Source: Zanthoxylum bungeanum
Lineage: Eukaryota > Streptophyta > Magnoliopsida > Sapindales > Rutaceae
Reading direction: 5' to 3'
NCBI GenBank assembly: GCA_019454045.1
Contig: SKCR01007823.1
Location: 806,001 to 870,000 of the forward strand
DNA length: 64,000 bases
The notes beneath the pieces are model-generated. The model saw nothing but the letters and a program-made list of their open reading frames with translations, searched no databases and was not told where the DNA came from. Position numbers and translations under genes: made by a program. Position 1 is the stretch's first letter. Each line of letters begins with the position of its first letter. Shown here piece by piece: positions 42,419-64,000 of this stretch.

Positions 42419-43076
42419 TAGTGAATCGAGACTTACAGATCATCTCATTCAATACCAAGGACCGAGGTGAAGAATGATGAGCGGAAAATATATCAATATT
42501 TACCGCCCCTTTTACTTAATATTTTGTTTAGTTTCTCGGGTTTGATGAACATTTTGATGTATTTTAGTTTATTTTGCAGATAAAATAATATTGGGACATA
42601 ATGAAATCATTTAGGACGAAATGTGGGTCAAACAAGGGCAAAAATTGGACTTGACATATTAATTTTGGAGATTGGAAACTTGAAAGGGCGTTTTAACGAA
42701 GTGCAGTTTTGGAAATTCCAGTTTTGCGCATCTATCGTATTTTGGACATAACGTCTTACTCCGATATCGGATTGAGCTGATTCAAGTTCCAGATTAAAGA
42801 AGACGCAAATATCTACAACTTTGATAGACAAAATAATTTCTAATTCTGAAGATTTCATGTCCGAAATTGATGAACCATACAGAAGTGTGTTGTGTGTAAT
42901 TATTAAATTCATTTTAAATCATTTTCAAAGAAAAAAAATAAATTAATAAATAAATAATAAAAATTATCAAATCACCACCAAACATGATAAGAAATTAGTG
43001 GAGCAATTAATAATGGATTTGGTGGAGCAATTAATAATGGATTTAGTGGATGATTTGATAGAGGCAAAATTTTGCC

Positions 43077-43084
43077 TATAAATA
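43077..43084 (+). promoter_or_regulatory. TATA box, 5' LTR of D
   Basis: GCCTATAAATACCAAG; the same phrase is at 63892-63899 in the right LTR and at 31874 in LTR F. Confidence 0.55.
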
Positions 43085-43639
43085 CCAAGCAATTTCATTT
43101 GTAAATCCATACTTTCTTCTAAGGAATTCCTTAAGAATACTAAGAATATTGTATCTTGTTTGTTTATTTATAGCTTTCAGTAATTAATTTCCGCTTTCGC
43201 ACTTTCTTTTCTTTACTTTTCAGTTTTTACTTTCCGCAATTTACTTTTACGCACAATACTTTTCTTTCTTTAATTTTCAGTTTTTACTTTTCAGTAATGA
43301 AGAGGTAAATCCCCTTTGCTGGGGTAAAATGTAAAACTTTTATTACTAATATTTAGATTAATCTCCCTTAATTATAATATATAAACTAATTAAAACCTGA
43401 CTTAACGAGGATACCGTCATATAGGTCGGTTGGTAATTATTTAAATTGGTTTTAACCTGACTAAACTGGATACCGCCTGATTGATCGGTTGGTAATTAAT
43501 TATTAATTTGACTTAATCTGGATACCGCCTATATGGCTGGTTGGTAATTATCATGCAAAGTTAATATATTATATTAAGGGAGATATCTAAAATAGAAGTA
43601 ATAAAAGTGGATCATATTACCTCAGCATTTTTTTTATTG

Positions 43640-43870
43640 TACTTTTACTTTATTTACTTTTCAGCAATTTACTTTCAGCATTTACTTTTCAGCAATTTAC
43701 TTTCAGTAATTTACTTTCAGCATTCACTTTTCAGTAATTTACTTTCAGCATTTACTTTTCAGTAATTTACTTTTCAACATTTACTTTCAGCATTTAATTT
43801 TCGGTATTTAATTTCAGCATTTTACTTTCCGTCATTTACTTTTCAACAATTTACTTTCAGCATTTTACTT
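43640..43870 (+). repeat. Short tandem units in LTR of D
   Basis: Roughly 15-bp units alternate TTTACTTTTCAGCAAT and TTTACTTTCAGCAT, with small changes. They lie downstream of the TATA box, so would be in transcribed RNA. Confidence 0.7.
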
Positions 43871-44652
43871 TATGTCTTTTATTTTATTTAAGTTTTTACT
43901 AGCCCAAGTTATGTGTCGTAACTAAGTTAGTTATTTAGGGTTGTGATGTATTCTAATATCACCGGTTTATAAGAGGTTATTTTATAGTTTGGGTAATTCA
44001 AAGGTTTACTTATTAAGTCTTAAGCTTAATGCGTCTTGTTAATTGGCCATTAATAAGATTGATTTGGTAAATCTAAAATAAACTTGACAAAGGAATTTTA
44101 GGTTTCAGTCTTAGACTTAATAGTCCATAATCTTCCTTGAGGATAGATAACCCTTTAATATATTTCCTTACAGGATAGACATATACCTGTCAGGCGGGTG
44201 TAGCCATAATTGGAACTTAAACTTAATGAATCCAGGTAATTTGGTTGACATAGACATATGGTTCAATTGGGTTATACTGGGTATTTACGTCTGACCATCG
44301 ACAGAGCCTTTCGCATAATTTAGTGTTCCAGGTTAGTAAACCGATTTATTACACAAAATGAAATAACCGCTTCATCTTTTAAAGGATATTAGAAAGATTC
44401 ATAACCCTAGACAGTTTCATAATATTGAATTTTCTTAAACCTACTTTCGTGCAATTTTATTTACTTGTTTTTAAATTTAGAATCATCACCATTTCAAATC
44501 AATCAAACATCCTGTTAGATACTAGTAATCATTTGACCTCATAAAATTAATAGATTAGGTATTAAGTCCTCGTGGGATCAATACTTTTTATACTACTTGA
44601 ACGATACGTGCGCTTGCGTTATACGCGTGTGATTACGCACCGGTCAAGTTTT

Positions 44653-44670
44653 TGGCGCTGTTGCCGGGGA
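44653..44670 (+). other. Primer binding site, tRNA-Asp type (element D)
   Basis: TGGCGCTGTTGCCGGGGA differs by one base from the TGGCGCCGTTGCCGGGGA site typical of Athila/Tat gypsy elements. Confidence 0.85.
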
Positions 44671-45106: not shown

Positions 45107-47241
45107 TGTTGGATAATATGACCCATAGCGTCACTATTTGTACAGATCACGGTGTTGTTGTACAAATAACTATGTGACAAGGAAATTACACTCTCATCAT
45201 TTGTGATTAAATCACTATAAATGTATAAATGAAGAGAGGTCCATATGATTAGTTCCTGGATTGAGATGATATGAGACAGTATCAGTCCACGAAGGATTAA
45301 TCATTAAATATCCCTAGCCGGAGTATTATCGAGACTGGACATCGATAATGCGGAATAGGCTAGTATTGCACTTGTGCGTGTTGTGAGGGCACAACGGCAT
45401 AGTTCTCATATATATAAGTATTGGATACTTATGCAAGTGCGATAGGAGGTCGTGTTTCACCGATGGTACGGGAAAGAGCTTCGCTCTGGATAGACCCCTC
45501 GGAATCCCATTGGTATTATGACTATGTGTCTATGGGAGGCCGAAATCAAGGTAGGTGTGTACAGTCTTAACCTGAGACTTGCATCGCTAATACTTGCGAT
45601 AATCGGTAGACTTTGGTCTTGGTGGTACAGGGCTTTAACCGGTTCTGTGTACACCATTTCTGGGTTTATCAGAGAGTCGTAGTGTATTGGGTGTGATGTC
45701 AAGACGGAAGTATCACTTCCGTCATATTGGAGATGATGTCACGCAGGATACGGTACTAGTGCTCTTAAGTGTTGCGCAACCATCGGGATATTGTGACCAG
45801 GTCATAAATATCCGATTATAGAGACTATGTTACCAGACATCCGACATGTGCTTCGGACGGGGCAGACACTTATCCAGCCCCAGCCCTAGCACGTGACTAT
45901 CCGATACTGGGCCAATATACACAATACTACGGTATATTATGCTTGATACAGATCTATATATTCCTGTAAGAATATTTCTGGAGAATTGGGTAGGCATGGC
46001 GCTTTGCTAGAAGCCAACCTTGTCTTGTAAATCGGTATAAACGTAGTACGAGGTACTTACGTGTTCGGACAGTCCGACGATCGTATTTACTGCCAACATA
46101 TCCGGAGATCTCATGGGTCGGTTCCTGAAGATTCACCGATGACGTATGACTCGCACTATGATTAATCTGGGATTAATTAGTAAAGAGAGAAGATTAATTA
46201 GAAGAGAGAGAAAATTAATCTGGGATTAATTACGGAGATATTTTATCTCGGATAAAATATTGTTTAAAGAGAGAGAACGATTAATTTGGAATTAATCGAT
46301 AAAATAATATATTCGATATATTATAAGAAATTGGATTTTGACGCGGAATTAAAATTAGATTTTAATTCGGGCGAACGAATTAATTTAGAAATAATTCGTA
46401 AGCGACGTGAATAGTGATTTCGCTAGGCGTAATCATTTAATTACGACGCGACGGAAAATTCGTTAATTTGGAATTAGCGAACCCGAGCCCGAGAGTGATT
46501 GCATACGCATTCGCATTTCGAATTCGAGCGCGGCACACGAGTCACATCAAGCGTCAAATCGTTAGTCACATCATGCGTCAAATCAATTGTCACTTTGAGT
46601 GATGTGACTTGACAACATGTCACTTTATTAAAGTGATGTGATGTGACTTAAAGTAAAAAGTTGAAATGATGGAAAGCTTTATTGCTTTTTATTTTTTTGA
46701 CTTTTGAATTAAAAGTTATATATATCTTTTATTTTAATTTACTTGGTAAAGGAAATAAATATATATATTAAATCTTTTCTCTCTCTCACATGCAAGACAC
46801 GGTTTCCTCATTTTCCCTCTCTTTTCCTCATCTTCTTCACGGCTTCACTGCCGATTTTCTTCTTGATTTTTCTGTTTCACACCGAAATTTTTGAGAAGCA
46901 AATTGAAGAAGACTTAGTGCTAGCACACCATGAGTGATACATAGGTGATAGGGAAGTGTCTTCATGAGCTTGGATTTAATTTTTGGAGCTTGAAGCTTTG
47001 AGCTTCAATGGAGTCCATGCATGGCCGAATCTTCAAGAGGAAAGGAAAACAAGAACCAAAACCGAGCAGCCCCCTGTCAAATATAGCTACTGCCGAGCTT
47101 CATGGAGGAGGTCAAAACATTTTGTTCTTCTTTGCATCAAAACCGAATTCAATGTGAGTATATTCCGCACCTCCTTTGATGTGTTCATACTCGTTTTTTA
47201 TGCTTGATTTGTTGATCTTGGGACTTGATTTAACTCCTACA
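45107..47241 (+). repeat. 5' LTR of element E
   Basis: 2135 bp. Near 46540-46660 it holds two direct copies of AGTCACATCA-GCGTCAAATC and then inverted GTGATGTGAC/GTCAC words, forming a palindrome-rich block upstream of a TATATATA tract (46717-46724). ORFs of 60-80 codons inside are repeated in the other LTR and are not genes. Confidence 0.92.
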
Positions 47242-50200
47242 ATGGTATCTTGAGCTATTATCAAGCATGAAAAAAGTTAGGGTTTATTTTGGGCAAAATC
47301 GATTTTGACTTGTTTTGGTTAAATTGATTGTTTAAGCATGCTTGGATGATGTTTAATTGAGATTGTGCATGATCAATTTCATGAAATTGGATTGGATTCA
47401 ATTTTCCTAAATTTTGGTCAAAACTTTATTTTGGTAAAATCAATTGAAGCATGATTTGGTTGAATTGGTTGATTAAGTATGCTTGTATGTTGATTATTGA
47501 AGTTGTGCATGATCAATTTCAAAAAAATTGGATTGGATCAATTTTCCCCAATTCTTTAGGTTGAACATGTAACTTGAAATTGGGTAAAATGTGTTTGAGC
47601 ATGTTTTAATTGAATTGGATGTTTAAGTATGCTTAAAACATGTTTAATTGAGATTGTGTGTGATCAATTTCAAAAAAATTGGATTGGATCAATTTTCCCC
47701 AAATTGGAGGCATGACCGAATTGGAAGAACCCTAATGTCTTGGAATTAATTTGTTTTTTGGATCATTGGATGACTTAAAACAATTGGGTATATTGTTTTG
47801 AAGTTCAATTGAATTGAATTTTGATTTGGAACAATTTTCCCTTTATAATGGGTTGACCGAATTCAATTGGACATGAAATTCATTGTGATTTTGTTGTTTG
47901 ATTCATTGGATGAGTTGAATTGATTTGGTAAATTATGATTGTGGACTCAATTGGATTGAAACCGAATCGAATTGAAAAACCCCTAATTGCCGAGACTTGA
48001 AAGCATGTAAATTGGGTTTGATTTTAATTGAATTGTGTTGGACACTATTTGGTTGTTAAAGTGCATGATTAATTAGGCTAATTGATGTTTTAGAAATTAA
48101 TAATTGGGTAATTGATTGTGTATTACACTTAGATTAATTAATTGTGAAATTTGGAATTTTATAAGTTAATTAATAGGGCTTGATTTTGGAAATTGGGCTT
48201 GTTAGGTTGTAATTGGGCTTTTGGGCTTTGTTGTAACAAAGTTGGGTTTAGGCAAAATTGGTTGGATCCAATTAGGCCCAAAACTGAATCCAAAGGTCCA
48301 ATTATGACTTAATGGACCTTAATTATTTAATTGGGCCTAATGGGCCAAAATTAATTTAAAGGCTTATGGGGTAACTCCCGGATTGGATTTTGGTTGTTCG
48401 GTTTGACCCGAGTTGACCAAAAGTCCACGCCTAATATAAATTAATTAAAAGCCCATTGGACTTTAATTAAATAAACATTAGATGTTAATCGGGCTTTGAG
48501 ACCCGTTGCGATTAAATTTGGAATTTAAGTCGTAAAGGTTCGTTAATAAAGGTGTAATATTTAATTTGGAATTAAATAATGAATTAGAATTAAATACGTA
48601 TTAAATTGGATTTAATTATGTAATTTAATTTTATTTGAGAAATCGTGCTTTGAGTACGTGTTCGCAATACGAGTTGACTCGAACAAAATCAAATCTTTGT
48701 TTGAACATTGGATGATCACTAATAATCAAGATTAATTAATTTGATTGATTGATTGATAATATGCTTGTATGAATACATGGTTGTGATGTTTGAATAATGT
48801 ATATCGGATGGATATTAGTCGGGTGGGGCGATTTTGGAAATTGTAATAAATTTGATTTATTAAATTGGACCTGCGTGTCCAGCCTTATCTCCTATTTCTT
48901 TGTATTCTCTTCTCACCTATTCCCCTCCATGTGAAAGAGGTTTCTTTAGAAGTGTAGTGTAACGGGTAGAAGTAATACAAGTGCTAGCGGGAGAGAGAAA
49001 GTGAGAGATTCGATCTAGGATCAATGTAAAATATCCATCCGCATATCATTATTATTTTATTTCATACTCGCTTTATTATGTGTTTAGAATGCATGCTTAA
49101 GGGTGTATGATGATGAGACCTTAACAAAGATAATTAATTGGTAGCCAATTTGCACGCGAAAAACCCTCGTTAAATATCATGCGTTTTTCCTTCCATTGAG
49201 TGATTCTTACTCAAGATCCGAGATTGGCAGGGGTTGTTGGCCAAAGTCAAGCCCTTCCCATCAAGATGTGTTTTAATTACGAGGCTTTGTTCCATATCGG
49301 TGTCGTGTCCAAGTTGTGGTTGTTTGGCCAAAGTCCCACTTCTTGTCCATTGACATTGATTACGAAGCTTCCATGTCAATGGGTCCGCGCTTGACTGGGA
49401 TCACTAGGTTTGTTGTGCCAAAGCCAAGGCCTAGTTGATTTAGAGGAAAAGGTTAGGGTATCATTCGATGTATAGGCATATATAAGATATATGTTTGGGA
49501 CTTGGATGTCCACCTACTGGATCTAGGAGTTGGATGGAGATCCAATTGATCTTCGAGATCTACCTAGTTAATTATCATACAATTTGTTGGCCAAAGTCAA
49601 GATTGGGTGATATTTAACGGGATCCTAGCCCACTAGGAAACACGGTTTCCCGAGTACTCGACAGAGGGTTAGAGGCTCGACGAAAAATAGTGGGAGGCAA
49701 GAATTGAATTTGCAATACTCGTTCATTACTCGCCATACGCGCTCAATTTAAATTATTTCGTCATTAGATAAATGTTGTTAGACTAATATTAAATTGTTGT
49801 TTTAATAAACAGTTGGACTGTATTATACTTGATTATATATCATTGGATTATATTAATCAATATATTTGAATTAATTAATTTCAGTTTACAGTTGATTTTA
49901 TAATGGATTATAGTAATCAATGTAATTGAGGTTAATTAATTTGGATTATATTTGATTATATAGTTGGACTATTATAATCATTATAATATATATAGTACCA
50001 CCAATCGTTGATTAAGTAGTTGGACTATTGTAATCAAGATAAAATTGAAAAGTTGGATATTAAAATATATCTAGGATTAAAATATTTTAAATGATTTAAT
50101 TTTCAAATTGGGAATAAATAATAGGTTACTTTATTGATAAAATAACTCATTATACCTTAAGCCCAAAATAAGCAAGATAAGTAGAGTATAAAATCTTTGG

Positions 50201-50559
50201 AAGTTTTTGTGATGATGACTTTAATGCTTATCTAATATACTTGTCATAAATCTAATTTTGGATTTAAGAGTATTAAAATTGCCATTTATAATTCTTGGAG
50301 AATTAATTGACTATTCATGTAAAGTCAAAGTTTGCAATTGGGCATGTAGCACGAGGTGCACATTCCTTTCAATATTCTAAAAACCCAAGGCTTGGCCTAA
50401 GGTTCCTAAATATTGAAAAGGATAATTGACATATCCCAAAGTGACTACCATTTGGATATGGAACACGAAGGAATTAAAGAAAGGGCGAGGCTCTAACTTT
50501 AAAAATGTTTGTCTTAGTTATGTTCACAGCTAGTATTGAAATTAGATTTTAAATACTTA
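47242..50559 (+). other. Element E leader and gag-position region, no readable gene
   Basis: The primer site is at 47243-47255. Three copies of a block containing 'GATCAATTTCA-AAAATTGG' occur at about 47356, 47496 and 47646. Four copies of a GTTGGCCAAAGTC-like word occur at 49234, 49319, 49412 and 49585. The rest is AT-rich with no capsid phrase and no zinc knuckle. Gag is either deleted or unrecognisable. Confidence 0.6.
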
Positions 50560-53340
50560 GTGTGGTACATAAAATATATGTATTGATGTTCAGAATCTGC
50601 TTTAAGCAGGATACTGACTTCAAGCTGAGATTACTCTGCGAATCGGAAACGGACGAAAGTCGCTGTTTCGACCGTAGATACCTAAGTTTAGGAACTACCC
50701 TTCGGGTATGTACTTGAATTAGGAACTGTTATAATGTAACTAGTTTGACTAGAGACATTATCTCTTTATCAGTGTTTAATCCGTTGCGGATAAAACCTTT
50801 ATATTATAGAACACTGAGTGTTTTATTATATAAAGATGATACTGAGATAAATACATTAGATGTAAATAACAGAATTTATATTTTGAATATAAATAAAATC
50901 TCAAACATATAATTGACAAATAAATAGCTCAAATTGATTTGATCAATAGAGACTTATTTGTGGCATTGTTGTCTAGGACACAATTTAATTAGACTCGTAT
51001 AACCACACTTTTGAAGAGTGCGTACTAGGACTGATTTGACTATTCAAATAAGGTCTGCGCGAATCTAGTTTATTAGGTAAAGTACCCTAATACTATTTAC
51101 TTGGTAATAGTAAAAGGGCCACCGATCTGTTAGCCCTATTCATGGTGAAGTTTGTGGGCCCATATCTAGCTAGGCTAGATGTGAACATGAATATTTCGTG
51201 ACCTTAACGGATGTGGCATCACGTTATGGTTATGTGTTTCTTTTGAAGAACACAAATCAGAAACTTTAAAGTTTCGACACGAAGTAAATAAACAGATCGG
51301 CTATAGTATTATTATTCCGCCACGGTAAGGCCGTAATGGAAAATACTTAAGCAGTAAGTTTCGTACATACATGAAAGAGTACGGTATTCTTCATATGAGG
51401 ACTCCTCCCGAGACAACGTCAGTTAGACGGTGTGTCCGAACGGATTAACCGAATCATGTTAGACATGATAAGGCTAATCACGAGTCACTCTGAGCTACTA
51501 TTTCCTTCTAAAGGATATGTATGATTATCAGAGCAAACTTATTTAGAATAAGGTTCCATATAAATCTGTTTGACAGATATCGTATAGGATATGAACAGGA
51601 AAAACAAGGTTTCTCATTCCTGACATTTTGGGTATGCTAGGCATAACGTTTGGATGATACCAAACTAAGGACCCAAATTGGATAAGTGCCAATATAGGTT
51701 ATCCTAAGGGAAACCATAAGTATAGTACTTATAAATCTCACATGAGAACAATGTGATTGTTGCTCACCATGCGGTTTTTCCTGAGTGAAATACCGATATG
51801 CAGTGGTCAGTGGGAGGATAGTGATACTCGATGAAAATCGGTAATACTGTTCTAGGCACGAAGTCCATAATGGAACACAAATAGTTCATTTATGATGAAT
51901 CTATACCATTAATCTTCAAATACACAAGACACTCGTAGATCGGATAGAGTCAGAAAACGACCTAGGGTATGGGTTTCTGATCTAACCTCATAAAGATGTC
52001 AATCTTATGAAGGTACATCCACCGACTACATTTTGAGGAAGTGATACGAGGTATCGACTCCCTATTATGGCAAAGTGCCATGAGTCCGGAATGAATTCCA
52101 TGTTTAACAACTATTTTGGATACTAGTTGTTGTACCACAAGGCATTGTGCCTATGGTACATTAAACGTCTTCAAGGAAGACATACATGGATGGCAACATA
52201 CCAACGTACAAAGCTAGGCTTTTGACGGAAAGGTATCGTTATCAACATTGTGTTAATAACGGTTCAACCTTTTACCTGTTGCCATGGTAAATCCATTTTG
52301 AAGATGCTTGTTGATAACTGCATATTTCATTTTGAAATGTGTCAGTTGCAGATCAAAATCGCTTTCCTGAAAAGGAAACATTTTGGAGGATGCTTTCAAC
52401 ATCCTGACGATTTTGTATAACCGACAAACAAGGTTTGCGGTTATTCGATCCATGTTTGGATTGAAGCAAGCATAAGGTTCTTGGAACTGACGTTTTGAAA
52501 TAATCATAATGGTTTATGATTTGACTCAACGAAATAATTCTTGTGTATATAAGGAGGTTAGTGGGAGTGCACTGACATGAATGTCATGTAAAATAATGAT
52601 ATATGTCGCTTCTTGACATGAAATTCCCATAAAACAATCGGTGAAAGCTTGGCTTTCATAAGAAATTCTCCGTAGAATTCTGGGGAGTAACAACCTTTAT
52701 TCAAGGAATAAAGATCTACTGGGCTAGATTTGGAGTTGGTAACACTCTCTGAGAAAATTGTACATTTAAAATGTACTTGTATTGGTGTCTCATACGCTTT
52801 GAGCATATGGAGTCACAATCGGGTCAATCCAAGTGATAGTCACTGGATTGAAGATTAAGAACATCTGTTAGTATCTGAGAGAACTAAAGATGTTGTCTTA
52901 AACTATGAAGATGGAGAACTTGAAGTGACTGGGATCACTGCTGCAAGTTTCCAAACCGGTAAATACTGCGGTACTATAAAGTTTGAAGGACGGGACAGTA
53001 AGCTGGAAATATTCGAGCAAGATAACTGTTGCCGATTAACAACAAATGCGGATTATTGCTACAAGCTGAGGCAGAAATATAAGCCATTTGGATCGATAAT
53101 AAATCTAATTAGATTAATATTAGTTCTGTAGCAGCTGAGCTAGGCGTCAGCACAGCTAAAGAATTAAAGGTCTCATCGACGATCCAGATATATACTTCTA
53201 TATCATCTTATTCGTTCGGATCATACATCGTGGCGATGTGATGATCGTATAAATCGCGTCAAAATAATTACGCAAATCCGCTGACAAAACCTTTCCTCAG
53301 CAATTTGAGCGAATTGTACATAGTTCGGGTGTTAGACACT
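50560..53340 (+). pseudogene. Highly decayed copia pol (element E)
   Basis: Only ghosts of domains remain. A post-protease stretch near 50650-50800 has LRIGNGRKSRCF and a NIISLS-like phrase. TYLWHCCLGH of GAG-pre-integrase is at about 50967. Integrase EYFVTLTDVASRYGYVFLLK is at about 51195-51255. An RT piece at about 52330-52480 has AFLK in place of AFLNG and no YVDD. RNase H traces are at about 52870-53080 (SFQTGKY, TVADS-like). The C-terminal tail before the polypurine tract is at 53270-53360. Stops occur every few codons and frames change constantly. Order is that of copia. Confidence 0.65.
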
Positions 53341-53360
53341 CGAGTGACTGGCTATGTGCC

Positions 53361-53371
53361 AAGTGGGAGAT
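53361..53371 (+). other. Polypurine tract (element E)
   Basis: AAGTGGGAGAT directly before the right LTR, identical to the core in element B. Confidence 0.75.
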
Positions 53372-55484
53372 TGTTGGATAATATGACCCATAGCGTCACT
53401 ATTTGTACAGATCAATGTGTTGTTGTACAAATTAACTATGTGACAAAGGATTGCACTCTCATCATTTGTGATTAGATCACCTTAGATGTATAAATGATTA
53501 GAGGTCCCTATGATTATTCCTGGACTGAGAATGATATGAGACAGTATCAGTCCCCGAAGGATTATCATTAAATATCCCTAGCCGGAGTATTATCGAGACT
53601 GGACATCGATAATGCGGAATAGGCTAGTATTGCACTTGTGCGTGTTGTGAGGGCACAACGGCATAGTTCTCATATATGTAAGTATTGGATACTTATGCAA
53701 GTACGATAGGAGGTCGTGTTTCACCGATGGTACGGGAAACAGCTTCGCTCTGGATAGACCCCTCGGAATCCCATTGGTATTATGACTATATGTCTATGGG
53801 AGGCCGAAATCAAGGTAGGTGTGTATAGTCTTAACCTGAGACTTGCATCGCTAATACTTGCGATAATCGGTAGACTTTGGTCTTGGTGGTACAGGGCTTT
53901 AACCGGTTCTCTGTTACACCATTTCTGGTTATCAGAGAGTCGTAGTGTATTGGGTGTGATGTCAAGACGGAAGTATCACTTCAGTCATATTGGAGATGAT
54001 GTCACGTAGGATACGGTACTAGTGCTCTTAAGTGTTGCGCAACCATCGGGATATTGTGACCAGGTCATAAATATCCGATTATAGAGACTATGTTACCAGA
54101 CATCCGACATGTGCTTCGGACGGGGTAGACACTTATCCAGCCTCAGCCCTAGCACGTGACTATCCGATACTGGGCCAATATACACAATACTACGGTATAC
54201 TACGCTTGATACAGATCTATATATTCCTGTAATAATTTTCTGGAGAATTGGGTAGGCATGGCGCTTTGCTAGAAGCCAACCTTGTCTTGTAAATCGGTAT
54301 AAACGTAGTACGAGGTACTTACGTGTTCGGACAGTCCGACGATCGTATTTACTGCCAACATATCCGGAGATCTCATGGGTCGGTCCTGAAGATTCACCGA
54401 TGACGTATGACTCGCACTATGATTAATCTGGGATTAATTAGTAAAGAGAGAAGATTAATTAGAAGAGAGAGAAAATTAATCTGGGATTAATTACGGAGAT
54501 TTTTATCTCGGATAAATATTGTTTAAAGAGAGAGAACGATTAATTTGGAATTAATCGATAAAATAATATATTCGATATATTATAAGAAATTGGATTTTGA
54601 CGCGGAATTAAAATTAGATTTTAATTCGGGCGAACGAATTAATTTAGAAATAATTCGTAAGCGACGTGAATAGTGATTTCGCTAGGCGTAATCATTTAAT
54701 TACGACGCGACGGAAAATTCGTTAATTGGAATTAGCGAACCCGAGCCCGAGAGTGATTGCATGCGCATTCGCATTTCGAATTCGAGCGCGGCACGCGAGT
54801 CACATCAAGCGTCAAATCGTTAGTCACATCATGCGTCAAATCAATTGTCACTTTGAGTGATGTGACTTGACAACATGTCACTTTATTAAAGTGATGTGAT
54901 GTGACTTAAAGTAAAAAGTTGAAATGATGGAAAGCTTTATTGCTTTTTATTTTTGACTTTTGAATTAAAAGTTATATATATCTTTTATTTAATTTACTTG
55001 GTAAAGGAAATAAATATATATATTAAATCTTTTCTCTCTCTCACATGCAAGACACGGTTCCTCATTTTCCCTCTCTTTTCCTCTCATCTTCTTCACGGCT
55101 TCACTGACCCGATTCTTCTTGATTTTTCTGGTTTCACCGAAATTTTTGAGAAGCAAATTGAAGAAGACTTAGTGCTAGCACACCATGAGTGATACATAGG
55201 TGATAGGGAAGTGTCTTCATGAGCTTGGATTTAATTTTGGAGCTTGAAGCTTTGAGCTTCAATGGAGTCCATGCATGACCGAATCTTCAAGGAACAAGAT
55301 GGACCAAACCGAGCAGCCCCCTGTCAAATATACTACTGCCGAGCTTCATGGAGGAGTCAAACATTTTTGTTCTTCTTTGCATCAAAACCGAATTCAATGT
55401 GAGTATATTCCGCACCTCCTTTGATGTGTTCATACTCGTTTTTATGCTTGATTGTTGATCTTGGGACTTGATTTAACTCCTACA
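53372..55484 (+). repeat. 3' LTR of element E
   Basis: 2113 bp, nearly the same as the left copy; differences are mostly single bases and 1-3 base gaps (for example near 53940 and 54240). Ends CTCCTACA, followed by TGCGG. Confidence 0.92.
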
Positions 55485-56666
55485 TGCGGTACTTTCAATT
55501 ACAACCGAGCAGCTGAAAAAGCAATGAGGCTGTGGGTTTTTCCATATTCCCTGAAAGACAGAGCTAAAGCTTGGCTATATTCACTAGCATTAGGTTCCAT
55601 CACAACTTGGAACACTCTAGCGACCAAATTCCTTGCAAAGTACTTTCTACCAGCCAGAACTGCAAAGTTGAGGAATCACATCACATCCTTCGTGCAACAA
55701 GATTCAGAATCCCTTTGCGAAGCTTGGGAAAGATTCAAATATTTACTCCGGAAATGTCCTCATCATGAGATCGCAAAGTGGCTACAAGTCCAAACCTTCT
55801 ACAATGGACTTTCTGGAATAATGAGAACCACAATTGATGCTGATGTTGGAGGATCTTTGATGGCAAAATGAGAAGATCAGGCCTGAGACTTAATTGAAGA
55901 AATGGCCAACAATAATTCTTTATGGCCAACAGAAAGGAGCATGATCCAAAGAATTGCAGGAATTTTTGAAGTTGGAGCCAACACAGCACTGAATTCCAAG
56001 CTGGATGTGATTTGTAAAAATCTGGAAACTCTTAACATGAAAGTTAATGGTGGATCCACAAGTTCACCATTTGGAGGAGTACCTGAGTCAGAATCTTACA
56101 ACCAACAAGAAGAGACAGTGAACTATGTCAATAATTTCAACAGACAGGGGAACAATCCATATTCCAACACCTATAACCCAGGGTGGAGGAATCACCACAA
56201 TTTCGCATGGAGCAACAATTCAGGGCAAAAGAACTACCCACCACCTGGATTCCAACAGCCAAATAAAAGCCAGAAGCATGAAAAAGAACCAGGAATAATA
56301 GAAGTGCTGGCCCAGTTGAAGAAGCAAGAAGCAAAATACGATGCTTTAGCAGCTATGGTTCAAAATCAAGTAGTATTGAATCAAAGCCATTCAGCCTCTA
56401 TCAAAGCACTGGAGAATCAAATGAGACAACTGGCCAATGCTCAGAGTTACAGACCGCCAGGTAATCTTCCCAGCAACACATAACCAAATCCAAGGAACCG
56501 AGGGAATGAGCAATGTCAAGCCATCACCTTGAAAAACGGTACTGAAATCAACAAAGATATTGGAATCAAGGCAACAATTGAGGAAGTTTCAAAAGATGCA
56601 GTGCCACATATGGAGGAAAAAGAAGCAAATGAAAAAGAAAAAGATCAGATCACTCCACCTCCACTT
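55485..56666 (+). pseudogene. Gypsy gag, 3' part (element D)
   Basis: Resumes after E with the Retrotrans_gag capsid core: LWVFPYSLKDRAKAWLYSL, TTWNTLATKFLAKYFLP, DSESLCEAWERFKYLLRKCP and VQTFYNGLSGIMRT. A stop at 55869 follows. The frame continues with an Asn/Gln-rich region (YNPGWRNHHNFAWSNN, YPPPGFQQP), a coiled stretch ending SASIKALENQMRQLANAQ, and a second stop at 56481. No zinc knuckle is present, as is normal for Athila. One or two substitutions separate it from an open frame apart from the E insertion. Confidence 0.85.
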
Positions 56667-59227
56667 TTTCCATAGCGACTTCAGAAAAACAAACTGGACA
56701 AGTAGTTTGCTCGATTCCTGGAGGTATTCAAAAAGCTTCACATCAACATTCCATTTGCAGAAGCCTTGGAAGAAATGCCCAGCTATGTGAAATTCATGAA
56801 AGACATTCTTTCACGAAAATGGAGATTGGGAGATTACGAGATAGTAGCATTGCCGGAAGAATACAGTGCCATCATTCATTGGAAACTTCCCCCAAAGTTA
56901 AAAGATCCTGGCAGTTTCACTGTTCCATGCACCATTGGAGAACACTATATCGGTAAGTCTTTATGTGACTTAGGTGCAAATGTTAATTTGATGTCTTTTT
57001 CTATTTACAGGAAACTGTAAATTGGAGAAGCAATGCATACCTCAGTCTCATTACATCTTGCTGATCGAACGCTCGCATTTTCGAGGGGTGTTGTTGAAGA
57101 TGTGCTGGTCAAAGTCGACAAACTCATTCTTCCAGCAGATTTCATTATCCTTGACATGGAAGAAGACAAAGATATACCTATCATCCTTGGAAGACCATTC
57201 TTGGCGATAGGACGAACTATAATTGATGTACAAAAAAGAGAACTAACCATGAAAGTTCAGCACCAAGAAGTTACTTTCAATGTTTTCAAAGCCATGAAAT
57301 TCCCGAGCGATGAAAAGGAAGAAGAATGCTTCAGAGTTGATGTTGTTGATAGTATCATTCAGGATACTGAGCTAAATCCCACAGATACACTTGAAGCTTA
57401 CATCACCAACATGACTGACAGTGAGCTAGATGCTGAAATCCTGGAATGTATCAACTACCTTGACAAACCATTCCATTTCAAATCGACACCACAAGTGGAA
57501 AACCTGGAACTCCCAAAGAAAGATCGAATCAAGCCTTCAATTGAAGAACCACCAGAGTTGGAGCTGAAGTTACTTCCGAGCCATCTCAGGTATGAATTTC
57601 TTGGGAACTCTTCTGAATTACCTGTTATTATTTCTTCTTCTCTAACATTGGAGCATGAAGAAAAGTTGTTGAGAGTATTACGAGAGCACAAAAGAGCCAT
57701 TGGCTGGACTATAACAGACATTCGATGTATTAGTCTATCATTTTGCATGCATAAGATCCTGATGAACGATGAGTACAAACCCACACTGGAGCATCAACAG
57801 AGACTCAATCCAATTATGAAGGAGGTCATAAAGAAAGATATCATCAAATGGTTGGATGCTGGCATCATATACCCCATCTCAGACAGAACTTTGGTGAGTC
57901 CTATGTAGTGTGTGCCGTAGAAAATAGGAATTACTATTGTCACCAATGAAAAAAACGAGCTAATCCCAACCAGAACGGTGAATGGATGGAGATTATGCAT
58001 GGACTATCGAAAGCTGAACAAACAACACGGAAGGACCATTTTCCGCTGCCATTCATTGATCAGATGCTGGACAGACTGGCGGGACATGAGTTCTATTGTT
58101 TTCTGGACGGATATTCAGGGTACAATCAGATTACCATCGCACCAGATGATCAGGAGAAAACTACCTTTACATGTCTCTATGGTACTTTTGCTTTCCATAG
58201 GATGCCATTTGGATTATGTAATGCTACTGCCACATTTCAGCGTTGCATGATGGCCATATTCTCAGACATGCTGGAGCAGAGTATGGAGGTTTTCATGGAT
58301 GACTTCTCTGTGTTTGGAGACTCTTTTGACCACTGCTTGCAAAATTTGGAAGATGTGTTACAAAGGTGCGAATATACAAACCCGGTACTCAACTGGGAAA
58401 AATGCGACTTCATGGTGCAAGAAGGCATTGTTCGTGGACACCGAATCTCACAAAAGGGAATCGAGGTAGACAAAGCAAAGATTGAAACAATTGAAAAACT
58501 ACCTCCACCGACATCAGTAAAAGGGATTCGGAGTTTTCTTGGACATGCAGGTTTTTACAGGAGATTTATCAAAGACTTTTCCAAGATTGCTAAACCTCTT
58601 TGCAATATTCTGGAGAAGGATGTGCCTTTCAACTTCACCAAAGAATGCCATGAAGCTTTTGAGATCTTAAAACAAAAGCTGATTTCTGCCCCCATCATTG
58701 TAGCACCAGACTGGACCCTTCCATTTTAAGTAATGTGTGATGCTAGTGATTTTGTTGTAGGTGCAGTTTTGGGACAACGCAAAGCAAAGATTTTCCACAC
58801 CATCTACTACTCCAGCAGAACTTTGAATGAAGCTCAACTCAACTACACAACCACTGAAAATGAGTTGCTCGCATTTATGTACGCTTTTGACAAATTTCGC
58901 TCTTATCTACTGGGTCCCAAAGTGGTGGTCTACATATATCATTCAGCAATCAAATATCTGATCACGAAGAAAGATGCCAAACCCAGATTGATCCGTTGGA
59001 TACTTCTTCTGCAAGAATTTGACGTGGAGATTCGAGACAGGAAAGGGACAGAAAACCAGGTGGCAGATCACTTATCGAGGCTCGAGAGTGGAGAAACAGC
59101 TGGCGAAGAACTGTCAATCAAAGAAACTTTTCCAGATGAACAGCTGTTTGCCATGAAACAGCAAGATGCCCCTTGGTATGCTGACTATGTCAACTACATT
59201 GTGTCAGGAAAATGGCCGTTGGAATAG
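56667..59227 (+). pseudogene. Gypsy protease, reverse transcriptase, RNase H (element D)
   Basis: A linker (FARFLEVFKKLHINIPFAEA, MPSYVKFMKDIL) is followed by a protease with LCDLGANVNLM (56961), where the usual D-S-G is D-L-G. LADRTLAFSRGVVEDVLVKV and ILGRPFLAIGR come next. RT has RLNPIMKEVIKKDIIKWL, a frameshift near 58010, DGYSGYNQI (58112), MPFGLCNATATFQRC and the catalytic EVFMDDFSVFGD (58294). RNase H has [16 protein letters not shown] (58733), [11 protein letters not shown] and HLSRLE. Stops at 57017, 57906 and 58727, among others, break the polyprotein. Individual frames of up to 291 codons remain open. Confidence 0.9.
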
Positions 59228-59317: not shown

Positions 59318-60460
59318 TTGAGACGGTGTGTTCCACAAGAGGAGGTCAACAGTGTTCTGCAACACTGTCATTCGTCACCATACGGCGAACACTTCAGCGG
59401 AAATAAAACTGCAGCCAAAGTCCTACAATCAGGTTTGTTCTGGCCCACTCTTTTTAAAGATGCTTATCTTTTTGCTCTTCAATGTGACAGGTGCCAGAGA
59501 ATAGGGAATATTTCAAGGAGAAATGAAGGACCGTTGCAAAGCATTCTGGAAGTGGAGATATTCGATGTGTGGGGTATAGATTTCATGGGACCCTTTGTTC
59601 CATTATTCGGAAACATGTACATCCTGGTTGGTGTAGACTACGTCTCCAAATGGGTTAAAACAATTGCACTACAATCCAATGATTCAAAAGTGGTGATCAA
59701 ATTCCTGAAAAAGAACATTTTCACTCGGTTCGGAACATCTCGGGCAATTATTAGTGATGGTGGCTCATATTTCTGCAACCGATACTTTGATGCACTCCTA
59801 TCCAAATACGGAGTTACTAACAAAGTTTCCACTGCTTATCATCCACAGTCAAATGGACAGGTTGAAGTTTCAAACAGAGAAATCGAAAGAATCTTGGAGA
59901 GAACCGTTGGATCAACAAGGAGGGACTGGTCAACAAAACTGGATGATGCATTATGGGCCTACCGAACAGTTTACAAGACACCCATTGGTATGTCCCCATA
60001 TCGATTGGTGTTTGGGAAAGCATGCCATCTACCAGTTGAGCTTGAGCACAAGGCGTACTGGTCACTAAAGAAGTTGAATCTTGATCCACAAGCTGCAGGA
60101 GAGAAAAGACTCCACCAACTCAACAAATTGGAGGAATTTCGCTTACGGGCTTATGAGAATGCCAGATTGTACAAAGAAAAGACCAAGAAATGGCATGATC
60201 TGAAAATAGTACACAGACAGTTGGAACCAAGGCAGCAAGTGTTGTTGTATAATTCACGGTTGAAACTTTTCCCTGGAAAGTTGAAATCAATGTGGTCAGG
60301 TCCATTTGTGATCACTCAGGTTTTACCATATGGAGCTGTTGAGTTACTGGATCCCAACACCAACGAAACATTCAAGGTTAACAGTCAGCGTGTTAAACAC
60401 TACTGGGGAGAATCATTTGAGCGACAAAAAGAAAGTGTCACACTTTCAGATCCAGCCTAA
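59318..60460 (+). CDS. Gypsy integrase, open part of broken pol (element D)
   Basis: 380 codons without a stop. The first codon is TTG inside the polyprotein, so this is a continuation of pol after stops at about 59227-59260, not a gene with its own start. Zinc finger [24 protein letters not shown] and [11 protein letters not shown]. Catalytic core: [15 protein letters not shown], an [11 protein letters not shown] phrase and [20 protein letters not shown] (D, D and E all visible). The C-terminal part has [18 protein letters not shown] and ends [20 protein letters not shown]. Length and order fit Athila integrases. It would join element cDNA to target DNA in the nucleus. Confidence 0.85.
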
Positions 60461-60521: not shown

Positions 60522-60761
60522 TGCAATTTGTGTATATATTGTGATCTGGTGTGTTTTATTTTTGTGTGTTTAATTTTTGCAGGTAAAGTCATTTCATGAT
60601 GGAAGAAGTTCTCGTAAATCTTCACAAGTAATTTCCTTCTATCCCTCAAAACTCTCTGATGAAAGTCTACAAAGCTAGCTTGGAACGGATGAGACTACTA
60701 ACGATCCATGGTGTTCCTAATGACATTCGTTGGGTAATTGAAGCACGGGTCCGATTGGCAG

Positions 60762-61335
60762 GTGAGTCTTCTGACTCTTTTATTTAACATCTGCCTAGTT
60801 TTGGAAGAAGCACATATGCAAAGAAATGTAGAGCTAAGCAAATGGGTGTTTGTTATAAATGTACACGCTGGAATTGCAATACTCGTTGTCGTTATTTAGG
60901 AATGGTGTCTGATAATCGCGAAGATAAAATTAAATTCATTAGGGATGGCTTGAGTAAGGAGTCTGTAGATAATATATCTTCGACTCTGGAGACGCGTCCC
61001 AGTGGATATGTTCATATCGCAAATTACATACACAATTTCAAAAAGAAAGACAACAGTTAAGTCTTAGGAATCTGACTCAAAAAGACCCTATTTGCCAATT
61101 TATAAGAAAATTGGATGGGAAGCTTGTCCCTGAGGCATAGACGTCAATTAAGCCGTAAACATTTGTAGATATTATATCTCTTTGTCTTTTCCTAATAATT
61201 ATAATTTGTTTTGTTGTTTTCTTTTAATTATCCGACAGGATCCAGACCTTTTTGACTATCACGGTTAATTTTACTGTTAACTAATAATTACCATTTGGCA
61301 GGTACTAGTGCTATTATTTTACTCACCCTTTTCAG
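60762..61335 (+). other. Possible intron upstream of the LOG-like frame
   Basis: CAG/GTGAGT at 60759-60767 is a strong plant 5' splice site. Pyrimidine-rich acceptors end at 61238 (CCGACAG), 61301 (TTGGCAG) and 61335 (CTTTTCAG). Splicing to the last would place the LOG start codon 52 nt into the next exon, a way to make a subgenomic mRNA. Inference only; no transcript data. Confidence 0.3.
60842..61060 (+). CDS. Small Cys-rich frame, function unknown (element D)
   Basis: The ATG at 60842 gives 72 residues: MGVCYKCTRWNCNTRCRYLG with C-x2-C-x5-C-x3-C spacing, then a charged stretch (NREDKIKFIRDGLSKESV), a Ser/Thr-rich part and a basic end. In the same frame it extends upstream to about 60793 without ATG. 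The cysteine pattern could bind zinc but is not the CCHC of gag. It lies between integrase and the LOG-like frame. A degraded copy of its middle part is at 62232-62312. I do not recognise a family; it may be a remnant of an env-region exon. Confidence 0.4.
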   Translation: MGVCYKCTRWNCNTRCRYLGMVSDNREDKIKFIRDGLSKESVDNISSTLETRPSGYVHIANYIHNFKKKDNS

Positions 61336-61387: not shown

Positions 61388-61996
61388 ATGGAAGCCACTT
61401 CAAGAAGACGAGTTGAAAATATCTGTGTGTTTTGTGGTACTAGTGTTGGTACTAAGCCACAATACGTAGAAGCAGCACATAAATTGGGTCGAGTCTTAGC
61501 TGCAAGGAATATGCACTTAGTATATGGCGGAGGCAATCTTGGACTTATGGGGATCGTTTCAAAAGCCTTAGCGGAGGCAAATCTTATTGGACCATCAAAC
61601 AGAGAGGAACTGATCGTGCCAGATATGTCTGAACTATTGGTAGAAATGATTAAGCATGCTGATGTTTTTATTGCTTTGCCAAGTGGCTTGGGTACATTGG
61701 AGGAAATTTTTACAGTGTTATCTTGGGCGAACCTGAACATACACCAGAAACCGCTTGGAATTTACAACGTTGAAGGATTTTATGATTTTCTTTGTGTGTT
61801 TCTTGATGATGCTCGGAGAAATGGGTTCGTGTCAAAATCTATGAAAGAACTCCTTTTTACTGCCAGAACTGCTCCGGATCTAATTGACCAAATCTTAGCC
61901 TATGAACCACAAATTGACCTTATCCTTTCAAAGATAAATTGGTCCGAGGACGATCATGGTAAGAGGCGTCAGATTAATCTGGATCTTAACCTTTAA
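61388..61996 (+). CDS. LOG-like phosphoribohydrolase frame captured by element D
   Basis: The ATG at 61388 opens 202 codons with no stop or intron. The protein follows the LOG family, which releases active cytokinin bases from riboside monophosphates in the cytosol. Seen: ENICVFCGTSVGTKPQYVEA (about residue 10), then LVYGGGNLGLMGIVSKAL (about 43), ADVFIALPSGLGTLEEIF (about 94) and NIHQKPLGIYNVEGFYDFL (about 118). A C-terminal SKINWSEDD precedes the end. Family signatures are PGGxGTxxE and an M-H-x-R-K motif. Here the first reads PSGLGTLEE, and the second is DMSELLVEM, lacking R-K. The stretch between GLMG and FIALP is about 15 residues shorter than usual. The last residues (GKRRQINLDLNL) are unlike the family as I know it. 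Plant LOG genes have several introns, so this looks like a retro-captured cDNA. Activity is doubtful; the kept frame suggests recent capture or selection. Confidence 0.85.
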   Translation: MEATSRRRVENICVFCGTSVGTKPQYVEAAHKLGRVLAARNMHLVYGGGNLGLMGIVSKALAEANLIGPSNREELIVPDMSELLVEMIKHADVFIALPSGLGTLEEIFTVLSWANLNIHQKPLGIYNVEGFYDFLCVFLDDARRNGFVSKSMKELLFTARTAPDLIDQILAYEPQIDLILSKINWSEDDHGKRRQINLDLNL

Positions 61997-62312: not shown

Positions 62313-62540
62313 GTTAATTTTTGTTTATTTCCTTTTGAATTATTTAATTGTGAATTCTCCATAATACTGACTAAAATGAATCTTCATATGCTCAGTTAGT
62401 AGGTATTATCAACATGCATAGTAACATACGAACATGAGCTATAATTGAAAAGTTTGTAATATTCGGTGCTCTAATTTAATTGGAGGAAGCATCTCAAAAA
62501 GTGATGGAGTAAAAAAAAAAAACGTTTGAGATGCAAGTTA
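62313..62540 (+). other. Non-coding (element D post-pol region)
   Basis: AT-rich with a short A run near 62510-62521. No gene or motif recognised. Confidence 0.5.
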
Positions 62541-62755
62541 TTAAGTCCGTAGGGGTGTTTTAACACTTAGTGCCCTAAAACCAACTGGTTTGGGAGTCAC
62601 TGGCCCAAAGCTCGTTACATGGATCAAGGATGTTGCAAAAATATATATATCTGAAGTCTGAGTAATTAAGTCCGTAGGGGTGTCTTCACACCTGGTGCCC
62701 TAAAGCCAACTGGTTTGGGAGCCACCGACCCAACACTCGCTACATAGATGGAAGA
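62541..62755 (+). repeat. Tandem duplication, 125-bp period (element D)
   Basis: TTAAGTCCGTAGGGGTGT begins at 62541 and at 62666. Both copies continue with 'GTGCCCTAAA-CCAACTGGTT' and 'GGGAG-CAC-G-CCCAA'. They differ at roughly one base in ten. Confidence 0.8.
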
Positions 62756-63290
62756 TATTGTATATAAATAAAAAAAAATCAAATAAAAAAATCAGAAAAA
62801 TTATTCCATTGCTGCAAAAAGGTGTGAATTCTGATAAAACTTTAGGACAAAAATATTACTCTCTTATCAACTGCACTTGTGACTGTTGTGGGCAAAAATG
62901 AGTTGATTAATATTTTGTCGCCTGTGCATATGGAGAATGAAAAATATAATCGGAGAATTTACTTATTCAGTAATTTAGAAAGAAAGAAAACAACTAGTAA
63001 CTTGGAGTAGAAGTTTCACCTGATTAGTCACTAACTTCTTTATTCTCTTGTCTTTTTGCTTTTGTGTGCATTAGTTTTATTATCTTTTTACTTTTGTAAA
63101 ACGTTTGTGGGTATCGTCGCTGTAAGCCCTCATGAGACTATAACTCGTCCACTAGGGACACCTAGGGGTTTAAAGGCTTGTTGCATATGCTAAATGCAAC
63201 CGTGATCCCTAGTAAAGTGGCTTAGTTTAATTTTAATTGTTTCTTGTATTTTATTTTGTTGTTTTGCTCGAGGAGTATTAAAATGTTAGA
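62756..63290 (+). other. Element D 3' region with block shared with C
   Basis: 63115-63235 ('CATGAGACTATAACTCGTCC', 'TTTAAAGGCTTGTTGCAT', 'AAAGTGGCTTAG') is the counterpart of 34340-34440 on the minus strand in element C. No coding frame. Confidence 0.6.
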
Positions 63291-63300
63291 TTTGGGGGTG
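63291..63300 (+). other. Polypurine tract (element D, 3')
   Basis: TTTGGGGGTG directly before the right LTR. Confidence 0.75.
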
Positions 63301-64000
63301 TGATGAGCGGAAAATATATCAATATTTACCGCCCCTTTAAATTAATATTTTGTTTAGTTTCTCGGGTTTGATGAACATTTTTATGTGTTTTAGTTTATTT
63401 TGCAGATAAAATAATATTGGGACATAATGAAATCATTTAGGACGAAATGTGGGTCAAATAAGGGTAAAAATTGGACTTGACATATTAATTTTGGAGATTG
63501 GAAACTTGAAAGGGCGTTTTAACGAAGTGCAGTTTTAGAAATTCTAATTTTGCGCATCTGTCGTATTTTGGGAATAACGTTTTACTCCGATATCGGATTA
63601 TGAATATTTCGAATATATACAACTGTGAAAGACAAAATAATTTCGAATTATGAATATTTCATGCCCGAAATTGATGAACCATCCAGAAGTGTGTTGTGTG
63701 TAATTATTAAAGTCATTTTCAAAGCAAAAAATAAATTAATAAATAAATAATAAAAATTATCAAATCACCACCAAACATGATAAGCAATTAATGGAGCAAT
63801 TAATAATGGATTTGGTGGAGGAATTAGTGGAGCAATTAATAATGGATTTGGTGGATGATTTGATAGAGGCAAAATTTTGCCTATAAATACCAAGCCATTT
63901 TATTTGTAAATTCATACTTTCTTCTAAGGAATTCCTTAAGAATACTAAGAAGATTGTATCTTGTTTGTTTATTTATAGCTTTCAGTAATTAATTTCCGCT
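63301..64000 (+). repeat. 3' LTR of element D, cut by window end
   Basis: First 700 bp of the LTR, matching 42475-43205. Includes the TATAAATA box at 63892-63899. A deletion of about 30 bp near 63601 relative to the left LTR and scattered substitutions indicate some age. Confidence 0.88.

Follow-up and report, generated by a model that had tools for sequence, protein, structure and literature searches.

The window, a 64,000-nucleotide stretch of Zanthoxylum bungeanum DNA (contig SKCR01007823.1), holds an LTR retrotransposon, here element D, that carries a LOG-like gene and the remnant of a second extra gene between its integrase and its 3' LTR. Its features, by position in the window, are as follows.

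42470-42474, no strand: target-site duplication AAGAA on the 5' side; its partner lies beyond the 3' LTR, outside the window, at L015:3400-3404
42475-44646, plus strand: element D 5' LTR (TGATGAGCGG...CGGTCA), sharing 93% identity with its 3' counterpart
44653-44670, plus strand: primer binding site TGGCGCTGTTGCCGGGGA, read from the sequence
45107-55484, plus strand: nested younger LTR element within the gag of element D, with LTRs at 45107-47241 and 53372-55484
55485-56483, plus strand: portion of element D gag 3' of the nested insertion (PF03732)
57033-57908, plus strand: protease-region frame (weak PF08284 match, under its cut-off)
57986-59227, plus strand: reverse transcriptase and RNase H frames (Pfam)
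59318-60460, plus strand: integrase (PF00665, PF17921)
60599-61137, plus strand: remnant of a carlavirus-NABP-like extra gene, with in-frame stops and a frame change
61388-61996, plus strand: LOG-like extra gene, 202 aa, intron-free (PF03641)
63286-63300, plus strand: polypurine-tract-like stretch adjoining the 3' LTR, read from the sequence
63301-64000, plus strand: 3' LTR, truncated where the window stops and running on to L015:3399

Element D has features of an Athila-lineage Ty3/Gypsy element, namely paired LTRs, a 5-bp duplication (AAGAA) at both ends, and the order gag-PR-RT-RH-INT, and its primer binding site TGGCGCTGTTGCCGGGGA agrees with what we take to be the Athila-type tRNA-Asp form. 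The LTR pair differs by a K2P distance of 0.037 over 2,058 sites, which at the rate of 3.92e-9 applied to Z. bungeanum in PMC8417289 gives an age of about 4.7 million years, while the nested element (45107-55484) is flanked by the duplication TGCGG and has an LTR K2P of 0.024. The integrase stop (60460) lies 0.93 kb ahead of the LOG frame, and 1.3 kb separates the end of that frame from the start of the 3' LTR (63301); within this latter interval, positions 62512-62761 hold two tandem 125-bp repeats that are 77% alike. Element C of the window (minus strand; 64% DNA identity to element D in pairwise comparison) has an Athila-type frame after its integrase (PF20167, E=4e-15). No env-like ORF was found in the 3' region of element D, where NABP-like and LOG-like sequence lies instead. 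Athila elements with an env-like ORF, as represented by element C, resemble element D in gag-pol order, in having extra genes downstream of integrase and ahead of the 3' LTR, and presumably in primer-site type, but have a PF20167 frame where element D has its two extra genes. The first-pass annotation had placed the LOG gene in an Athila-type element at the position of the env-like frame of element C, and the LTRs, the duplication, and the flanking integrase and 3' LTR bear out that placement, as the PF20167 match does for element C.

The annotation had also read an uninterrupted 202-codon LOG frame, and it indeed runs from ATG to stop over exactly 61388-61996 and contains all four of the cited phrases (VFCGTS, YGGGNLGLMG, GTLEE, and NVEGFYDFL). 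Protein searches upheld the family assignment: the product matches PF03641 (Lysine_decarbox, the LOG domain; E=4.7e-26, 92 bits, cut-off 27) and PF18306 (E=1.4e-9), its closest solved relative is 2a33, Arabidopsis At2g37210 (E=1.1e-48; AtLOG3 in PMC4979012), and both the LOG domain (TIGR00730 family) and a Rossmann-type fold were recognized in the element family. The label of a cytokinin-activation gene is not supported for this copy, in which codons 61-75 of the 217-aa form are missing (15 residues that include a core strand of the AlphaFold model), Leu stands for the catalytic Arg, and PSG replaces PGG, losing the Gly of PGGxGTxxE; that motif and the catalytic Arg/Glu pair are found in the element family but are incomplete in the window copy. 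Because of these three losses, the window copy looks dead. Its deletion does not appear to be the one seen in L033-L035, since those copies lack codons 57-71 or 58-72. Relatives of the frame were sought in viral contigs, and none were found.

Copies elsewhere were counted in the 3.956-Gb assembly (51,709 contigs). A plastid-derived matK frame in it is closest to Zanthoxylum calcicola (86% over 62% of the query), with Calodendrum, Skimmia, and Dictamnus following among named matches, which makes Zanthoxylum the likely genus. A degenerate 30-base pattern for the ten codons of MSERLVEMIN matched exactly 19,597 times and a reversed-pattern control 0 times, as against 21 matches to the host-type motif D-M-H-[QE]-R-K-A-E-M; each figure counts places, the assembly may contain duplicates, and the first figure omits copies altered in the motif. 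Three pairs of LOG copies were identical, two of them representing one place taken twice and the third lying on two contigs. A profile search gave 47,331 loose candidates at first look, of which 150 were scored, and flanking DNA was inspected at 18 places (the window and 17 from the best Pfam hits), which are better than average copies because they were chosen by Pfam score. Downstream of LOG, an LTR start resembling element D's was present in 16 of these 18 places (at only 77-80% identity in several), and the distance from LOG to LTR was 1.30-1.44 kb in 15. NABP-like sequence, in some cases partial, lay upstream of LOG in 15/18, integrase in 13/18, and reverse transcriptase in 4/18. The LOG gene moves together with its element and is present in about twenty thousand places of the assembly, so the earlier proposals that other copies carry the frame at the same place, and that the element has amplified it, hold. 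Two further arrangements were seen: L002, L003, and L007 have an acidic frame of 240-270 aa (SDSDEDE...) upstream of LOG, and L020 (C45283:52001-62000) carries a pair of LOG copies, separated by 3.5 kb and each followed by an LTR start.

Six of the 18 places (L016, L017, L022, L023, L026, and L027) retain both extra genes without reverse transcriptase and RNase H, the loss of which is evident because the protease region runs almost straight into the integrase C-terminus, joining it near residue 234. Three others (L018, L019, and L032) have LOG but neither NABP nor integrase. Between the window and the RT-less copies, dS was 0.57-0.86 in integrase and 0.13-0.24 in LOG, and since the former far exceeds the latter, the LOG region seems to have been exchanged between subfamilies.

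To separate constraint during transposition from decay after insertion, variants were split into singletons (mostly post-insertion) and those shared by at least two copies (mostly inherited via transposition). Our main sample comprised 26 copies taken from the pattern hits in contig order (20 + 6), one of which (L067) is truncated at the end of its contig; it was added because the set of 42 distinct copies from protein searches had been picked by score, and as it is conditioned on ten intact motif codons, those codons were excluded from the counts. The LOG N/S rate in this sample fell from 0.859 among singletons to 0.407 among shared variants (Fisher p=3.1e-6), and likewise from 0.886 to 0.399 without CpG sites, while neither of the other frames showed a significant drop (frame +1, 1.01 to 0.84, p=0.32; frame +2, 0.97 to 1.82, p=0.07). 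The 42 copies gave 140 N/72 S singletons and 82 N/104 S shared variants (p=1.3e-5), and all 68 copies pooled gave 0.963 and 0.454 (p=7.7e-8). Integrase (14 copies; 0.95 singletons, 0.45 shared, p=0.002) and the NABP-like gene (16 copies; 0.83 and 0.54, p=0.018) behaved similarly, LOG being no more special than these neighbors in this test. An initial dN/dS estimate (LOG 0.236, NABP 0.426, INT 0.306) came from the best Pfam-scored copies and was set aside as main evidence, as its copies had been selected on protein score, with four places included twice (L005/L016, L008/L017, L003/L018, and L007/L019). The LOG gene was under purifying selection while the elements multiplied, whereas single copies then decay nearly neutrally, with the window copy among them and an intact 217-aa frame left in 5 of the 26 contig-order copies.

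As for origin, the first-pass annotation had held that plant LOG genes are multi-exon and that the element had captured a host mRNA. The match is split across several exons in all six host LOG loci examined, and element copies such as L008 have one uninterrupted frame across the host exon junctions; judging from these sequences, the element LOG is captured from a spliced host mRNA. A quick tree of 117 rows, in which host LOG groups are thinly sampled, separated 108 element-type proteins from the six host loci, AtLOG3, and AtLOG8 by a branch with SH-aLRT 97. The element-type clade is wide, with a length of 217 aa common to many members, and within it Populus proteins and the Zanthoxylum family form two derived groups, whereas seven rows with a canonical pocket, Xanthoceras among them, sit at or near its base, where the tree leaves the deepest fork without resolution. 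The capture thus looks old and common to other plants rather than recent in Zanthoxylum, with homologs outside this genome known as proteins without flanking DNA.

In the Corynebacterium glutamicum LOG, Arg99 and Glu122 are proposed to act in catalysis, and a prenyl site, likewise proposed and shared with AtLOG3, comprises Met96, His97, Lys100, Glu125, and Trp129; Lys100 also touches adenine, and alanine changes at the prenyl-site residues nearly abolished activity, except at one serine (PMC4979012). The search found 558 homologs; the active-site positions could be scored in 118 of the 120 that were listed, and the following counts hold among the matches listed. Arg99 and Glu122 are both retained in 103/118 (Arg99 is absent in 11/118), Met96 in 113/118, and Trp129 in 117/120, while His97, Lys100, and Glu125 are all replaced in 102/118 and all canonical in 9/118. 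Each of the last three residues is canonical in 0 of the 27 rows from the Zanthoxylum genome (some places twice), of which 26 keep Arg99, the exception being the window copy. This comparison shows that the predicted catalytic Arg/Glu and nucleotide-phosphate motif are mostly kept and that the proposed prenyl pocket is rewritten, so that the cytokinin label of the first-pass annotation is not supported for the family either. Relative to the plant enzymes AtLOG3 and AtLOG8, the element proteins share the fold (an AlphaFold model of homolog P0002, pLDDT 85.7, has 2a33 as best structural match, rmsd 1.1), the catalytic Arg/Glu, and PGGxGTxEE, but differ in being intron-free, in the replaced H97/K100/E125, in a basic LxLxL tail, and in forming a separate clade. 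Because Lys100 contacts adenine and alanine changes nearly abolish activity, the derived proteins may be poor enzymes, and a loss of all enzyme activity across the family may have occurred.

Most element-type LOG proteins end in a basic stretch and an LxLxL tail. Among the matches listed, LxLxL lies within the last nine residues in 83/103 homologs of at least 195 aa, compared with a background of 15 among 20,929 internal 9-mers, and it accompanies the changed pocket (82/94, vs 1/9 with a canonical pocket). None was found in the tails of four host LOGs (L054, L056, L057, and L058); at L053 and L055, a search for the final exon gave none. The tail is of low confidence in the P0002 model and probably disordered, and its shared variants in the Zanthoxylum genome (2 N, 2 S) are too few to gauge special constraint. 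We take LxLxL here, as a working hypothesis, for an EAR motif with a link to TOPLESS, though so short a motif may be read otherwise.

The second extra gene, a remnant in the window, is open in some other copies, for example L008:552-1097, whose 182-aa product matches Viral_NABP (PF05515; E=7.1e-7, 29.9 bits against a cut-off of 23) and falls below the cut-off for Carla_C4 (PF01623; 19.0 bits against 20.9), while the L005 product passes both (26.8 bits against 23 and 22.7 against 20.9). Of 334 NABP-like homologs, 31 were scanned, of which 25 matched Viral_NABP and 24 Carla_C4 at E 0.001; named hosts among the homologs include Xanthoceras, Populus, Acer, Rhamnella, and Orobanche. Both families are cysteine-rich nucleic-acid-binding proteins of carlaviruses and allexiviruses, which the scanned homologs resemble in these matches, but the element gene is borne by a retrotransposon and its function is putative. 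A search for a solved relative of the protein found none, and its predicted structure is a low-confidence model.

We favor, at a probability of roughly 55%, a two-gene Athila-type family whose selected, pocket-altered LOG acts on another nucleotide for the element's benefit. In this reading, element D is one copy of a large Athila-type family carrying two extra genes at the env-like position, one for a nucleic-acid-binding protein of carlavirus type and one for a LOG, the latter from a host mRNA. The LOG product is predicted to be a working phosphoribohydrolase of nucleoside monophosphates whose substrate is not the usual cytokinin nucleotide; the host cell would produce it, and it would act there to the element's advantage, perhaps in the nucleus through its tail, and alongside the virus-type protein it could alter a nucleotide signal or the defence state of the host. 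A more speculative version, which we offer tentatively, is that the two genes are a counter-defence module that replaces the env-like gene, in which LOG is repurposed to act on another nucleotide instead of activating cytokinin, its basic LxLxL tail ties it to host transcription, and the module passes between autonomous and RT-less elements.

Two rather different functions were weighed against this reading. The element might carry a true cytokinin-activating LOG, cytokinin keeping cells dividing or meristematic, the state best for transposition. The retained LOG fold and catalytic residues, the selection on the frame, and the nine homologs whose pocket is canonical at H97, K100, and E125 (the seven included in the tree lie at or near the clade base) are consistent with this, but H97, K100, and E125 are all replaced in 102/118 homologs, with each canonical in 0/27 Zanthoxylum rows, and the 217-aa copy L008 scores 113 bits on the NCBIfam cytokinin LOG equivalog model, which serves prokaryote annotation, against a cut-off of 300. 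A hormone role is therefore possible and not favored, and we judge it unlikely. Somewhat more doubtful still is a non-enzyme, in which a nucleotide-binding LOG fold recruits a TOPLESS-type co-repressor through its LxLxL tail and so damps host genes that restrain the element: the tail (83/103 homologs, absent from the four host LOG tails) is probably disordered and accompanies the changed pocket, as such a scaffold would have it, yet tail variants are too few (2 N, 2 S) to show special constraint, and the catalytic Arg/Glu, needless in a mere scaffold, are still conserved.

The two remaining readings fare far worse. As a neutral passenger, LOG would have been multiplied merely with its element, and the 21/26 copies without an intact frame (one cut by a contig end) and the N/S near 1 among singletons would suit it; this is contradicted by the frame-specific drop to 0.41 in shared variants (p=3e-6) and sits ill with the wide element-type clade, many of whose members remain at 217 aa, and we consider it very improbable. 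An independent LOG retrocopy that landed by chance in a single element would also be intron-free, but with that position occupied by the gene in other copies too, and about twenty thousand places matching its motif, this explanation has almost no chance of being correct and was rejected.

The presence of LOG in Gypsy elements has precedent: the YgdH domain, found in LOG proteins, is reported in Gypsy consensuses of Citrus sinensis, C. clementina, and Populus trichocarpa in PMC9289625, which cites Steinbauerova 2011. These elements share with ours a LOG-family domain inside a Ty3/Gypsy element, Citrus is also in the Rutaceae, and the element-type clade of our tree includes Populus proteins, but the accessible text of that report covers domain presence only, with nothing on copy number, selection, pocket, tail, or an NABP-like partner. 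The same paper describes an AlkB-type RNA demethylase in orchid Gypsy elements, likewise a captured conserved enzyme domain, which differs in enzyme and lineage and in having in vitro activity, where our evidence on the element LOG is from sequence. The accessible text of PMC7264820, PMC11728184, and the 2026 review PMC13317346 has no mention of a LOG-bearing element, and in a search that lay mostly outside subscription literature, we found no description of the copy number, selection, pocket, tail, or NABP-like partner. LOG capture by Gypsy elements is thus already known, while its scale, selection, rewritten pocket, tail, and virus-type partner were not found described in that literature. 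The first-pass annotation had called a retrotransposon that amplifies a hormone-metabolism gene notable; the amplification of a LOG-family gene stands, the idea has this precedent in print, and a cytokinin role is possible but not favored.

To our knowledge, most extra ORFs of plant LTR retrotransposons have no assigned function. In the present family, such an ORF is a recognizable enzyme, under selection, in about twenty thousand places, and with a defined set of changed residues, and its function is therefore testable by ordinary enzyme assays. Annotation will also label these element genes "LOG", which could inflate cytokinin gene counts: three Populus proteins (P0038, P0048, and P0070) have the database name LOGL10 yet lie within the element-type clade, and LOG family counts may be inflated for this reason. 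A selection scan in Zanthoxylum reported a nonsense mutation in a "LOG7" gene (PMC7527552), and because such genomes hold so many element copies, it is worth checking that this is a host gene.
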